From: Candidatus Nanopelagicus abundans
Lineage (GTDB): Bacteria > Actinomycetota > Actinomycetes > Nanopelagicales > Nanopelagicaceae
Direction: 5' to 3'
Assembly (NCBI RefSeq): GCF_002288305.1
Contig: NZ_CP016779.1
Coordinates: 682,001 to 746,000, forward strand
DNA: 64,000 nt
A program made the position numbers and the translations under genes. Numbering within the stretch: the stretch's first letter is position 1; the number at the start of each line of letters is the position of its first letter. Below are positions 23,235 through 54,153 of the stretch, in pieces. The notes beneath the pieces were generated by a model. It was not told the DNA's origin, did not search any database, and saw only the letters and a program-made list of their open reading frames with translations.

Positions 23235-24146
23235 ATGGATGAGTTATCCAAGGCTGGTATAACTGATCCGGCACTAAGAACTTCATATCTAGAGTGCAAA
23301 CGACTTAATTCACTACATGGCAAGACATATTACCTAGCCACACTTTTATTACCACCAGCAAAACGGCCATTTGTTCACGCACTATATGGCTTTGCCCGCT
23401 ATGCGGACGAAATAGTAGATGACCTTGCTTCAACTTTAACTGATGAAGAAAAAGCAAACTCGCTAAAGCAATGGGGTGAGGGTGTTATCTCTGATATTAA
23501 ATCTGGAAATAGTAATGATCAAATCGGTAAAGCACTAGTTGATACAGTAAGAAGATTTGATATTCCAATTCAATACTTTCAAGCGTTCCTTCATTCTATG
23601 ACAATGGATTTAACTATTACTGAATATCAAGAGTATGAAGATCTTCAGGAGTATGTATATGGTTCAGCAGCTGTTATTGGTCTTCAAATGGTTCCAGTAC
23701 TCGGCAGAGAAAAAGGCAGCTCAATTGATGAAGTAAATTCTGCAGCGGAAAAACTTGGTGTGGCTTTTCAATTAGCTAATTTTATTAGAGATGTAGGTGA
23801 GGATTTAGATCGAGGACGAGTTTATTTACCAATTGCTGAATTACAATCACATGGTGTTACACGAGAAATGCTTGAAGATAAAGTCCTTACGCCACAAATT
23901 AAAAGTGCACTAAAAGAGCAGATTGAAAGGGTCAGAAGGCTACAGCGAGAGTCTGCTATTGGAATCAAAATGCTGTCGATCCAAAGCCGGGCATGTATTC
24001 AGGCAGCAAGTGAACTTTATTGTGGAATAGTAGATGAGGTTGAAAAGATTGATTATCAAATATTTAGTAAGCGAGCAAAAACTTCAAACATGCGAAGAAT
24101 GAAGGTTGCAATTCCTGCTTATTTAAGGGCAGTAAGCTCTAGATAA
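23235..24146 (+). CDS. crtB: CrtB, phytoene synthase
   Basis: Squalene/phytoene synthase family enzyme condensing two GGPP to phytoene. Both Mg-binding motifs are present: ARYADEIVDDL near residue 53 and the NFIRDVGEDLDRGRVYLP segment near 180, the latter being the trans-isoprenyl signature. At 303 residues it is complete. It is the last gene of crtE-I-B and its stop is directly adjacent to that of the convergent crtYd, with no terminator between. Confidence 0.93.
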   Translation: MDELSKAGITDPALRTSYLECKRLNSLHGKTYYLATLLLPPAKRPFVHALYGFARYADEIVDDLASTLTDEEKANSLKQWGEGVISDIKSGNSNDQIGKALVDTVRRFDIPIQYFQAFLHSMTMDLTITEYQEYEDLQEYVYGSAAVIGLQMVPVLGREKGSSIDEVNSAAEKLGVAFQLANFIRDVGEDLDRGRVYLPIAELQSHGVTREMLEDKVLTPQIKSALKEQIERVRRLQRESAIGIKMLSIQSRACIQAASELYCGIVDEVEKIDYQIFSKRAKTSNMRRMKVAIPAYLRAVSSR

Positions 24147-24452
24147 TTACCGTTTTTGGATATCTTTTTTACCCCAGAATACCCACATCGCCATCACACA
24201 GAGTATGAGCGCAAACCCAAATAAAAGATCCTCAATCGGGGCAGATGCAATTCTAATTCCGTTAATTGCATCCGGCTTATACATAACAATATTTCTTGAG
24301 GTTAACCACCAATTAGTAATCAATTGAAAAGGTAAAATAATTGCATAACTTGTCCAAAATGCTGCTCGCATGAGCAATTTGGTCTTAATTAGGAATAGAT
24401 CAAAAAATATTGAAAATAAGAATGCCAAAATAGCGATATCTGTATAGACCAT
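24147..24452 (-). CDS. crtYd: Lycopene beta-cyclase subunit CrtYd-like
   Basis: One half of the heterodimeric actinobacterial lycopene cyclase. It is a 101-residue membrane protein with three helices and the conserved P-x-E-D type motif in ASAPIEDLLFGFAL near residue 72. The ATG at 24452 overlaps the crtYc stop as TGATG with AGGGG 7 nt upstream; a GTG one codon earlier is possible. With one cyclase pair and acyclic-end tailoring genes, a monocyclic (gamma-carotene) intermediate is expected. CrtYe/Yf (epsilon or C50 cyclases) have the same architecture and cannot be excluded. Confidence 0.82.
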   Translation of the reverse strand: MVYTDIAILAFLFSIFFDLFLIKTKLLMRAAFWTSYAIILPFQLITNWWLTSRNIVMYKPDAINGIRIASAPIEDLLFGFALILCVMAMWVFWGKKDIQKR

Positions 24453-24781
24453 CACTCATCCCCTACTTTCCAATGTTTGTTCACAGTGCGCACAGCCTCG
24501 ATTGTCATAATTGCAGCAATTGGGATAATTGTGAAAAATAAAAACTCTTCAAGGGGTATATCAAATGGACCAAAAATTCCCAGGATTTGTTCTTGATCAA
24601 AATACCAATGGCCTTGTGAAATTGCATATGCATCCCAAATCAAAAAGAAAATTGAGACCGGAAATATACTTATAACTAACCGCTTAACTCTTCTTAGTAC
24701 ACCAATTTTTAAAACAATTTCAAGCCAGAAGGACCCAAAAACCGTAAAAAGAAGCATTGCCATATAACCAAACTTAAGCAC
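24452..24781 (-). CDS. crtYc: Lycopene beta-cyclase subunit CrtYc-like
   Basis: Partner subunit of the split lycopene cyclase, 109 residues with three helices. The motif FDIPLEEFLFFTIIP near residue 73 is the conserved PLEE segment of the CrtYc/CrtYe family, and WDAYAISQGHWYFD near 49 is also typical. It is transcribed ahead of crtYd on the strand opposite to crtE-I-B, so cyclisation can be regulated separately from phytoene and lycopene supply. Its upstream region is divergent from the TPP riboswitch. Confidence 0.83.
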   Translation of the reverse strand: MLKFGYMAMLLFTVFGSFWLEIVLKIGVLRRVKRLVISIFPVSIFFLIWDAYAISQGHWYFDQEQILGIFGPFDIPLEEFLFFTIIPIAAIMTIEAVRTVNKHWKVGDE

Positions 24782-24821
24782 GCGCTAACTATAGACAATT
24801 TTTATCACCAATCCACTATGA

Positions 24822-24908
24822 TTTCCAATACGGGAGCTAAGAAATTTAGCTGAGAGGACTTGAAACTCAAGTCGACCGGTTGACCAGTTCGGTAATGCGA
24901 ATTGGAAA
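24822..24908 (+). promoter_or_regulatory. TPP (THI-box) riboswitch
   Basis: Classic thiamine pyrophosphate aptamer layout. The closing P1 stem pairs TTTCCAAT (24822-24829) with ATTGGAAA (24901-24908). Between them are the conserved ACGGGAGC, the GCTGAGAGG pyrimidine-sensor core, GACCGGTTGACC and the CGGTAATGCGAATTGG pyrophosphate-side core. The 3' strand of P1 abuts the AAAGG ribosome site of pnuT, so translation control by occlusion is likely. No T-rich terminator is seen. Confidence 0.93.
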
Positions 24909-24918
24909 GGATGTAACT

Positions 24919-25473
24919 ATGTCTATTTTAGAAACCTTAGCCTTTTTAACATCACTAATCGGTGTAATCCTTGGCGTACTCGGCCCACGAGTTACATGGC
25001 CTTGGTGGATAGCAGGTAGTTGTCTATATGCAGTTTTATTTTTCCAATCTGCCTACTATGCAAGTGCAGCACTGCAATTTATTTTCATAGCTGGGGGTAT
25101 TTGGGGTTGGTTTGGTTGGGGACCTAATGGGGCAAAACCAAAAAAATCCGCTACAAAAGAAAGACTTTTACTGTTAGTAGCATTACTTGGATCTTCACTA
25201 TTACTCTGGCCTGTTCTTACAAATATTGGCGCAGCATCCTCCGCTATTGAATCATTTGGTTTTGTTGGTAGCGTGATAGCCCAATTATTAATGGTTTGGC
25301 AAAGATATGAGGCTTGGCCACTTTGGTTTGTAGTAGATGCGGCTTATACATACCAATATTTTAAGGGTGAGCTATACCTAACTGGTGTTCTATATACAAT
25401 ATTTACGGCAATTGCGATTTGGGGTTGGATCCGTTGGGGCAAAGAATCAACAGCAAGTAACAAAAAGGTTTGA
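24919..25473 (+). CDS. pnuT: PnuT-type thiamine transporter (PnuC family)
   Basis: Seven-helix PnuC-family vitamin transporter of 184 residues. Tryptophan-rich segments such as IWGWFGWGPNG near residue 72 and IAIWGWIRWG near the C-terminus are typical of PnuC, PnuX and PnuT. The TPP riboswitch directly upstream marks this one as the thiamine importer PnuT. I start at ATG 24919 (MSILETL), 8 nt after AAAGG; the longer in-frame version would begin inside the riboswitch. It overlaps the following kinase gene as TGATG. Confidence 0.85.
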   Translation: MSILETLAFLTSLIGVILGVLGPRVTWPWWIAGSCLYAVLFFQSAYYASAALQFIFIAGGIWGWFGWGPNGAKPKKSATKERLLLLVALLGSSLLLWPVLTNIGAASSAIESFGFVGSVIAQLLMVWQRYEAWPLWFVVDAAYTYQYFKGELYLTGVLYTIFTAIAIWGWIRWGKESTASNKKV

Positions 25474-26015
25474 TGGAGTATTTAAAACTGCTATCAGAGT
25501 TGCTAAAGATTAAATCTGATAACCCAATCGTGGTTGCAATTGATGGGCCAGCTGGTAGTGGTAAAACTACCTTGGCCCAGAAACTAGTTAACGATCTTTC
25601 TGATGCTCAAGTTATTCATATGGATGATCTCTATGACGGTTGGAATGATCCACTATCAGCAAAATTAACAGCTAGAGTTATTTCTCAATTATTTCAACCT
25701 TTTATTATGCAACTTCCAGTAAAATACCAGTGTTTTAATTGGAAGTTAAATAGGTTTGATGTAATGAAATCTGTTTATCAGTCAAAGTATTTAATAGTAG
25801 AAGGTGTTGGATCTGGACAAAAAAGTTTTAATGAGTACATAAATAAGTTGATTTACATACAAATAGACCCTCAAATTGGGTTTGATCGAGTAATCGCCCG
25901 TGATGGTGAGCAGGTAAGGAATGAAATGTTAAAATTTTTAGTTGATCAAAATAATCATTTTTTAGCAGAATTAACAAAGATTAGAGCGGATTACACCCTA
26001 GATGGCGCGCCTTAA
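25473..26015 (+). CDS. P-loop kinase (uridine kinase-like) in the thiamine operon
   Basis: Small nucleotide-dependent kinase of 180 residues: Walker A in VVAIDGPAGSGKTTLAQKL (about 19-37), a DxD-like acceptor segment IHMDDLYDGWNDP near 52 and YLIVEGVGSG near 104. It resembles actinobacterial uridine-kinase-like proteins of unproven substrate. It is translationally coupled (TGATG) to pnuT and so should be under the TPP riboswitch. PnuT works by facilitated diffusion and needs trapping by phosphorylation, so a thiamine or precursor kinase role is a reasonable hypothesis. No known thiamine kinase signature is seen. Confidence 0.7.
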   Translation: MEYLKLLSELLKIKSDNPIVVAIDGPAGSGKTTLAQKLVNDLSDAQVIHMDDLYDGWNDPLSAKLTARVISQLFQPFIMQLPVKYQCFNWKLNRFDVMKSVYQSKYLIVEGVGSGQKSFNEYINKLIYIQIDPQIGFDRVIARDGEQVRNEMLKFLVDQNNHFLAELTKIRADYTLDGAP

Positions 26016-26051
26016 ACTCTAATTTCAAGTCTCATTCTCTAAACTTTCACC

Positions 26052-53217: not shown

Positions 53218-54153
53218 CTAGAAGTGCTGGTAACCAGTTTTTTTAATTTCTACACCATCTAGTAACAATTTCCCCTCACCTTTACCAACACTACCTATTT
53301 GAATTCCTAATTCATTGCTCTCATTCTCCTTGCCAACAGTTGCCAGGAAGAAGTGATCCTCACCTCCAGTAAGAATCCAATCAAATACATCTTCATTTAA
53401 TTCTTTCGCAAGCTCTGCAAGATCTTTAAAATCTGCTGCTTGTGAGATTAAATCCTTACTCAGATTAAAATTTACATTTGATGCGTAAGATAAGTGTGCG
53501 GCATCTGTTGCTAACCCATCACTTACATCACACATAGATGTTGCTACTTTGATTAACTTATCTGGTGCTACTAGTTTTGGATTTAAATGAGCCTCAACTA
53601 CATACCTTGGCCGATCTAGTTCTCTATTTAATATTGCAAGTCCGGCAGCAGATAAACCTGTAAGTGATGATAAATAAATCAGATCTCCAACTCTCGCACC
53701 GCTTCGAAGAATTGGTTGAGCTGATAACTCACCAAGAGCGGTAATACTTAAAGTCATTTTCTCAGATTTGCTTAAATCACCACCAATAACAGTTACCTCA
53801 AATTTATCGGCAACAGAGCGAATACCTTTAGCAAGTTCGGTAACCGTCTCGCTATTATTTAATTCACTAATACCAGCTGCTACTAATAAATATTTAGGAA
53901 TAGCCCCCATGGCAAAGATATCGGCAAGATTTGCCGTTGTAAGTTTTGCCCCTATTTGAAATGGTGTGGACCACTTTTTATTAAAGTGAATATCCTCTAC
54001 TGCCATATCTACAGTTGCAACTAACTTGTTATTAGAACTCTTTATAACCGCAGCGTCATCACCGATGCCCACTTGCACCTGGGTTTGAAATGAGGTGTGA
54101 AATAGATCGCGTAAGCGCGCTATCAGCCCTGCTTCAGATTCAATCAATGCCAC
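53218..54153 (-). CDS. thiL: Thiamine-monophosphate kinase
   Basis: Phosphorylates thiamine monophosphate to TPP. The 311 residues have VGIGDDAAVIK near 29, VDMAVEDIHFN near 48, the ANLADIFAMGA motif near 73, VIGGDLSKS near 121, CDVSDGLATDAAHL near 208 and the C-terminal WILTGGEDHFFL motif. Together with the riboswitch-controlled PnuT at 24.9 kb it indicates TPP metabolism. Uptake of phosphorylated or synthesised thiamine both remain possible. Confidence 0.93.
   Translation of the reverse strand: MALIESEAGLIARLRDLFHTSFQTQVQVGIGDDAAVIKSSNNKLVATVDMAVEDIHFNKKWSTPFQIGAKLTTANLADIFAMGAIPKYLLVAAGISELNNSETVTELAKGIRSVADKFEVTVIGGDLSKSEKMTLSITALGELSAQPILRSGARVGDLIYLSSLTGLSAAGLAILNRELDRPRYVVEAHLNPKLVAPDKLIKVATSMCDVSDGLATDAAHLSYASNVNFNLSKDLISQAADFKDLAELAKELNEDVFDWILTGGEDHFFLATVGKENESNELGIQIGSVGKGEGKLLLDGVEIKKTGYQHF

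Follow-up and report, generated by a model that had tools for sequence, protein, structure and literature searches.

A candidate thiamine-salvage operon of Candidatus Nanopelagicus abundans: PnuT-type transporter, putative P-loop thiamine kinase and a variant TPP-riboswitch-like leader

The acI actinobacteria rank among the most abundant bacteria of fresh water, and to our knowledge neither a thiamine kinase nor a thiamine pyrophosphokinase has been recognised in them, so that the trapping and activation of imported thiamine in this group lacks an explanation. The passages on thiamine, the riboswitch and PnuT in Kang et al. 2017 (PMC5301498) describe acI strains as thiamine auxotrophs with a THI element in front of a pnuC-like gene, for which the function of PnuT was proposed; the same passages name neither a kinase downstream nor a missing diphosphate site. 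As far as these passages go, the pair of riboswitch and PnuT in acI is already known and the assignment of the kinase appears to be new; no report of the downstream kinase was found in the open-access literature.

In the window, i.e. the whole stretch of 64,000 nucleotides analysed here (positions 682001–746000 of a single-contig genome of 1.16 Mb), the leader, pnuT and the kinase gene form one operon on the plus strand, spanning 24820–26015 (Table 1). Its anatomy, the linkage of its genes, the gap in the pathway, the fold of the kinase and the variant form of the aptamer were all obtained by computation. We regard it as probable that the locus is the thiamine-salvage operon of a thiamine auxotroph, with import by PnuT, phosphorylation to TMP by the kinase, a second step by ThiL and control by a variant riboswitch; the idea of such an operon and kinase is well supported by comparative genomics, and the greater surprise lies in the variant form of the riboswitch. 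The preliminary description had the two genes coupled by TGATG, and the pnuT stop codon (25471–25473) indeed runs into the kinase ATG at 25473; an alternative in-frame TTG start lies at 25470, from which the kinase residues are numbered below. It had also placed thiL at 53.2 kb, where the gene was found on the minus strand.

Table 1. Coordinates of the operon, its leader elements and thiL within the window
Feature	Position	Strand	Basis
TPP-riboswitch-like leader, variant aptamer	24820–24922	+	RF00059, 42.1 bits; variant model R1, 115.9 bits (window leader among its training sequences)
TTTCCAAT, 5′ strand of the P1 stem of the preliminary description	24822–24829	+	pairs with ATTGGAAA (24901–24908)
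CGGGAGC, P2 5′ strand and start of P3	24831–24837	+	invariant in 60/60 aligned leaders
CTGAGA, J3/2 pyrimidine (HMP ring) sensor	24850–24855	+	invariant in 60/60 leaders
P4/P5, single unbroken 8-bp helix CCAGUUCG-GUAAUG-CGAAUUGG, J4/5 and J5/4 absent	24884–24905	+	alignment, covariation, counts
Shine-Dalgarno site of pnuT, GGAAAGGA, which overlaps the end of P4	24904–24911	+	sequence
pnuT-type thiamine transporter (candidate), 184 aa, PnuC/NMN_transporter family	24919–25473	+	PF04973, TIGR01528, conserved adjacency to the kinase
P-loop kinase, 180 aa, candidate thiamine kinase	25473–26015	+	ORF, profile matches, invariant residues, predicted fold
Walker A of the kinase, GPAGSGKT	25545–25568	+	G26, G29, G31 and K32 identical in all 68 sequences
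thiL, thiamine-monophosphate kinase, second step of the route envisaged here	53221–54135	−	TIGR01379, 241.9 bits, above cut-off

The pnuT product is a Pnu-family membrane protein (PF04973, 1.7e-34), which also scores above the cut-off of TIGR01528 (57.8 bits), so that its NCBIfam name would be PnuC. Its gene context is linked to thiamine: a riboswitch core precedes pnuT in 65/65 leaders read, including ones missed by the Rfam search, and this context suggests thiamine as the transport substrate. A second PnuC-like gene (≈ 30 percent identity, 225 aa), possibly PnuC or PnuX, is present in several members of the genus (among other positions G016:C1:8120, G004:C1:976768 and G013:C1:239557).

For E. 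coli ThiC, ThiE, ThiG, ThiD, ThiM and others, tblastn gave no convincing match in the genome itself; within the family, ThiC occurs in one genome only and a full ThiE in six. A dedicated thiamine pyrophosphokinase elsewhere would have weakened the case for the kinase, and no match to PF04263 was obtained in the genome or the family. Matches to this profile in other actinobacteria were rejected as thiamine pyrophosphokinases, being partial matches of ≈ 36 aa inside larger ORFs. ThiL is present in 118 of 120 genomes. With the de novo genes and the pyrophosphokinase missing and ThiL kept, a thiamine-to-TMP kinase fits the gap; without one, import of TMP would be the only way to supply ThiL with substrate inside the cell.

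The candidate is tightly linked to the transporter. Of 73 genomes of the family Nanopelagicaceae searched, 64 carry a thiamine-type PnuT, and the kinase gene follows pnuT directly in all 62 genomes covering both genes; the remaining two, G015 and G025, end at contig edges. Nine family genomes are devoid of thiamine-type PnuT. Four of these (G026, G034, G043, G054) still have the kinase in its usual location, between phytoene synthase/lycopene cyclase and pknB, and carry ThiB/ThiP-type genes behind a TPP riboswitch, identified by an NCBIfam thiamine substrate-binding protein in three and by generic Pfam families only in G034. The other five (G028, G037, G042, G053, G064) have neither kinase nor PnuT; ThiE is present, and no thiamine importer (PnuT, ThiB/ThiP) was seen in them. 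In G028 and G037, the two inspected, thiE, thiO-type and thiG genes fill the crt–pknB slot, and in four of the five a riboswitch precedes a CytX-like permease (Pfam run on two). Seen together, the kinase accompanies thiamine import, whichever of the two transporters serves it, and is not found in genomes where ThiE makes TMP and no importer was seen. This profile reflects a small number of independent losses, as all five genomes without the kinase belong to two genera. The slot between crtB/lycopene cyclase and pknB (23235–26051 of the window; L101–L104, L212, L216) is itself a site of thiamine-gene swapping, occupied among relatives by pnuT and kinase, by the kinase alone, or by thiE, thiO and thiG. 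The proposal of the preliminary description, a candidate thiamine kinase completing salvage together with ThiL, thus draws support from the linkage, the missing pyrophosphokinase and the retained ThiL.

As to the enzyme itself, D25, G26, G29, G31, K32, D52, Y55, W58, W91 and E111 are invariant in 68 family kinases, as are G112, V113, R140, R144 and D145. The AlphaFold2 model (pLDDT 95.3) is closest, in a Foldseek search of the PDB, to 1rz3 (E 2.9e-11) and to uridine kinases such as 3asz (E 8.7e-11), the PDB matches overall ranging from E 1e-11 to 1e-8 at ≈ 15–24 percent identity. Predicted fold and Walker A motif are those of a uridine-kinase-like P-loop kinase. It scores far below the cut-offs for uridine kinase proper (TIGR00235, 33.4 versus 220.3 bits; PRK05480, 40.4 versus 180 bits), and its best NCBIfam match, PRK06547, reaches 88.9 against a cut-off of 173. 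The profile of the APH-type ThiK/YcfN (TIGR02721) is absent from its best 25 NCBIfam matches, and that of ThiN, the pyrophosphokinase catalytic domain (PF04263), from its Pfam matches. An earlier statement that the kinase is not related to ThiN or YcfN therefore stands, in that no sequence relation was detected and the fold is that of uridine kinases instead. The invariant aromatic residues among these, Y55, W58 and W91, could stack on the ring of a ligand.

Homologues of the kinase are found in 266/395 genomes of the class. The contexts of 60 loci and of named contigs were examined, many of them picked as best matches to the kinase of L238, so that frequencies are biased; in high-GC relatives they were taken from tblastn with named queries, ORF picking being unreliable there. 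In five genomes (L238, L349, L351, L355, L383), Aurantimicrobium included, the kinase closes an operon of TPP riboswitch, ykoE, ykoD and ykoC, the riboswitches scoring 55–63 bits, and in family f39 it follows pnuT behind a 33-bit riboswitch. At L379:6642–8218, a 49.6-bit TPP riboswitch, an NMT1/THI5-like binding protein and a kinase overlapping it make up one operon. The kinases linked to ykoEDC separate from those linked to pnuT in a quick tree computed without support values. Most of the 60 loci show no thiamine gene nearby, and no riboswitches were found at the outgroup kinase loci L107–L118. In family f3 (L118:4051–6159, L363, L364) the homologue either forms a fusion with PabB (aminodeoxychorismate synthase) or lies next to it. 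In view of the loci free of thiamine genes and of the pabB fusions, the wider kinase family may have another role.

The leader departs from what had been expected. It matches RF00059 at E 4.5e-7, below the Rfam gathering score of 54.3 bits, as the only such match in the 1.16-Mb genome; a search of the window at the gathering threshold did not find the riboswitch, which surfaces only in e-value mode. The pnuT leaders of relatives likewise fall below this threshold, so that annotation at threshold misses them family-wide. According to the preliminary description the riboswitch has all core elements. The J3/2 motif UGAGA, together with P2 and P3, is indeed present in 60/60 aligned leaders, and J3/2 is the sensor of the pyrimidine (PMC3764141), but the diphosphate-binding J4/5–J5/4 loop is deleted, as seen in the Infernal alignment and in counts. 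Nor could the P1 stem said to abut the ribosome site of pnuT be upheld: the proposed pairing of TTTCCAAT with ATTGGAAA takes bases of the P4 3′ strand and therefore excludes P4, at least 7 bp can form at this position in only 5/60 relatives, P1 being generally not conserved, and in the minimum-free-energy structure predicted for the window leader the P4/P5 helix forms but the stem does not.

In structures of TPP riboswitches, G60, C77 and G78 sit at the diphosphate and its metals, and U59, A80, G60, C77 and G78 are strongly conserved (PMC3764141); for the E. coli thiM riboswitch, pyrophosphate has been described as mandatory for switching (PMC4112796). Most of these positions are deleted in the Infernal alignments of the window leader and of aligned relatives, and the internal loop between P4 and P5 that would hold U59–A80, G60, C77 and G78 is not found. 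In an anchored count, the two bases after P5 are CG (C77–G78) in 1/67 pnuT leaders versus 38/40 other TPP leaders, and UGAU stands directly before P5 in 0/67 versus 31/40. In their place stands a continuous P4/P5 helix, 8 bp long in 49/67 pnuT leaders and interrupted in some by a small bulge of two or three additional bases. Across the alignment of 60 sequences, pairing in the proposed helices reaches 97.5 percent, versus 42.8 percent at best when slid, and 9 pairs have both sides changed, including former loop positions within P4/P5 (A-U to G-C and C-G; G-U to G-C and A-U); an alignment-based fold recovers the same inner six pairs, and the L5 loop is conserved among pnuT leaders. The leader is a variant aptamer that has kept the pyrimidine sensor and lost the diphosphate-sensor loop. 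Its ligand, by this anatomy, probably contains the pyrimidine of thiamine and need not be TPP; the aptamer may sense thiamine instead. No TPP aptamer devoid of the diphosphate site was found in the open-access literature, although Weinberg et al. 2017, on variant riboswitches, may describe one.

The variant follows the type of operon. Canonical leaders in Nanopelagicaceae precede thiE, cytX-like and thiB genes, and the ykoEDC–kinase operons carry canonical leaders too, so that the variant tracks operon type and not clade alone. The variant helix recurs in the leader of family f39 and, in a modified form, in G117. A search with a model built on the variant brought up three more genomes, all of family f88, in which the aptamer precedes genes for ThiT (PF09515) and thiamine pyrophosphokinase (PF04263). 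As the latter enzyme family makes TPP without passing through TMP, the ligands that would suit every case are thiamine or TPP. In G117 the gene directly 3′ of riboswitch and pnuT encodes an unrelated enzyme, a NadR-like (AAA_28) kinase (L100:4964–5533). At the f88 loci (L390, L391 and L392, ≈ 1501–1610) P4/P5 is likewise continuous; the leaders there are long, and a CTCCTC stretch could pair with the Shine-Dalgarno site.

Other readings of the kinase have to be weighed against a role in thiamine phosphorylation. It might act on HMP or another pyrimidine precursor and not on thiamine, and the association of homologues with ykoEDC and with an NMT1/THI5-like (ThiY-type) binding protein speaks for this, transport systems of both kinds being frequently assigned to pyrimidine precursors. 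We consider this unlikely, since HMP phosphate would be a dead end in a genome devoid of ThiE, ThiD and thiazole genes, and the ThiE-bearing genomes with a CytX-like (HMP-type) permease have no kinase. That pnuT was inserted upstream of the pre-existing gene of an ordinary nucleoside or sugar kinase in the crt–pknB slot would account for the four genomes that hold the kinase in this slot without pnuT, and would agree with the uridine-kinase fold and the kinase–pabB fusions elsewhere. It is, however, quite improbable, given that genomes with neither PnuT nor ThiB/ThiP also have no kinase, and that in other families the kinase turns up separately in operons with ykoEDC and with pnuT. An APH-family ThiK/GntI-like protein (G000:C1:345205–346197), with 69.8 bits to TIGR02721 (ycfN_thiK), was considered as the thiamine kinase of the genome and rejected on its distribution. 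The score lies below the cut-off of 299, GntI matches better (159 bits), and the protein occurs in only 4/25 genomes of the genus, being missing from the complete genomes G004 and G013; this patchiness largely refutes its candidacy and leaves it a very slight chance. The gene of this protein (also L137:5202–6197) adjoins a dimethylglycine-dehydrogenase-like gene.

For the leader, there is about an even chance that it is a normal TPP riboswitch in which the shortening of P4/P5 is tolerated and other contacts still hold TPP, a reading compatible with the assignment of the kinase. The L5 loop and the remaining core elements are conserved, feedback by TPP as the end product is the customary logic, and a small loop or bulge persists in some of the leaders; on the other hand, G60, C77 and G78, which contact or coordinate the diphosphate (PMC3764141), are out of place in 66/67 leaders, the P4/P5 positions covary as a plain helix, and the change is seen in 4 lineages, in each case exclusively in front of operons that pair an importer with a kinase. 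Loss of the diphosphate site by itself would favour thiamine over TPP as the ligand, TPP held by other contacts being at least as likely. More tentative is the wider proposal that such leaders form a variant riboswitch class sensing thiamine or TMP, dedicated to import-and-phosphorylate operons (pnuT combined with one or the other of two unrelated P-loop kinases, or thiT with thiamine pyrophosphokinase), and that the kinase represents an unrecognised family of P-loop thiamine kinases; both together we hold to be possible, at clearly less than even odds.

For the salvage operon as preferred here, the following route can be envisaged. PnuT would admit thiamine by facilitated diffusion, the co-translated P-loop kinase of uridine-kinase fold would convert it to TMP and thereby trap the vitamin, and ThiL, encoded elsewhere, would turn TMP into TPP. 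Control would be exerted on translation, the 3′ end of the riboswitch overlapping the Shine-Dalgarno site of pnuT: binding of the ligand is expected to stabilise the fold of the leader and so to block pnuT and, via coupling, the kinase. If true, a P-loop thiamine kinase would fill the acI gap and may explain salvage in other actinobacteria devoid of thiamine pyrophosphokinase. A TPP-like aptamer with no diphosphate pocket, recurring in front of operons for an importer and a kinase, is in turn a candidate case of altered ligand within one of the most thoroughly studied riboswitch classes.

Compared with known systems, the leader shares with the TPP riboswitch (RF00059) P2, P3, the CUGAGA pyrimidine sensor and the L5 loop, as well as the thiamine-gene context and a Shine-Dalgarno site at the 3′ end of the aptamer; it differs in its missing J4/5–J5/4 diphosphate loop, the fusion of P4 and P5 into one helix, and a score below gathering. 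The THI element and PnuT of acI, as treated in the passages of PMC5301498 considered here, are the same pair in the same lineage, with thiamine uptake already proposed. E. coli ThiK (YcfN) would share the reaction, thiamine to TMP followed by ThiL, but is of the APH/choline-kinase type, whereas the kinase in the window has the P-loop uridine-kinase fold. The ThiT–thiamine pyrophosphokinase operon likewise joins a thiamine importer to a phosphorylating enzyme, its f88 copy standing behind the same variant aptamer; transporter and enzyme belong to other families, however, and the pyrophosphokinase makes TPP directly. Finally, the P-loop kinases related to uridine kinase and to PRK06547 and PRK07667 (PDB 1rz3) resemble the kinase in fold, Walker A motif and overall length; identity to 1rz3 is only ≈ 20 percent, and the 1rz3/PRK06547-like kinases stand in an operon context other than that of pnuT and its leader.
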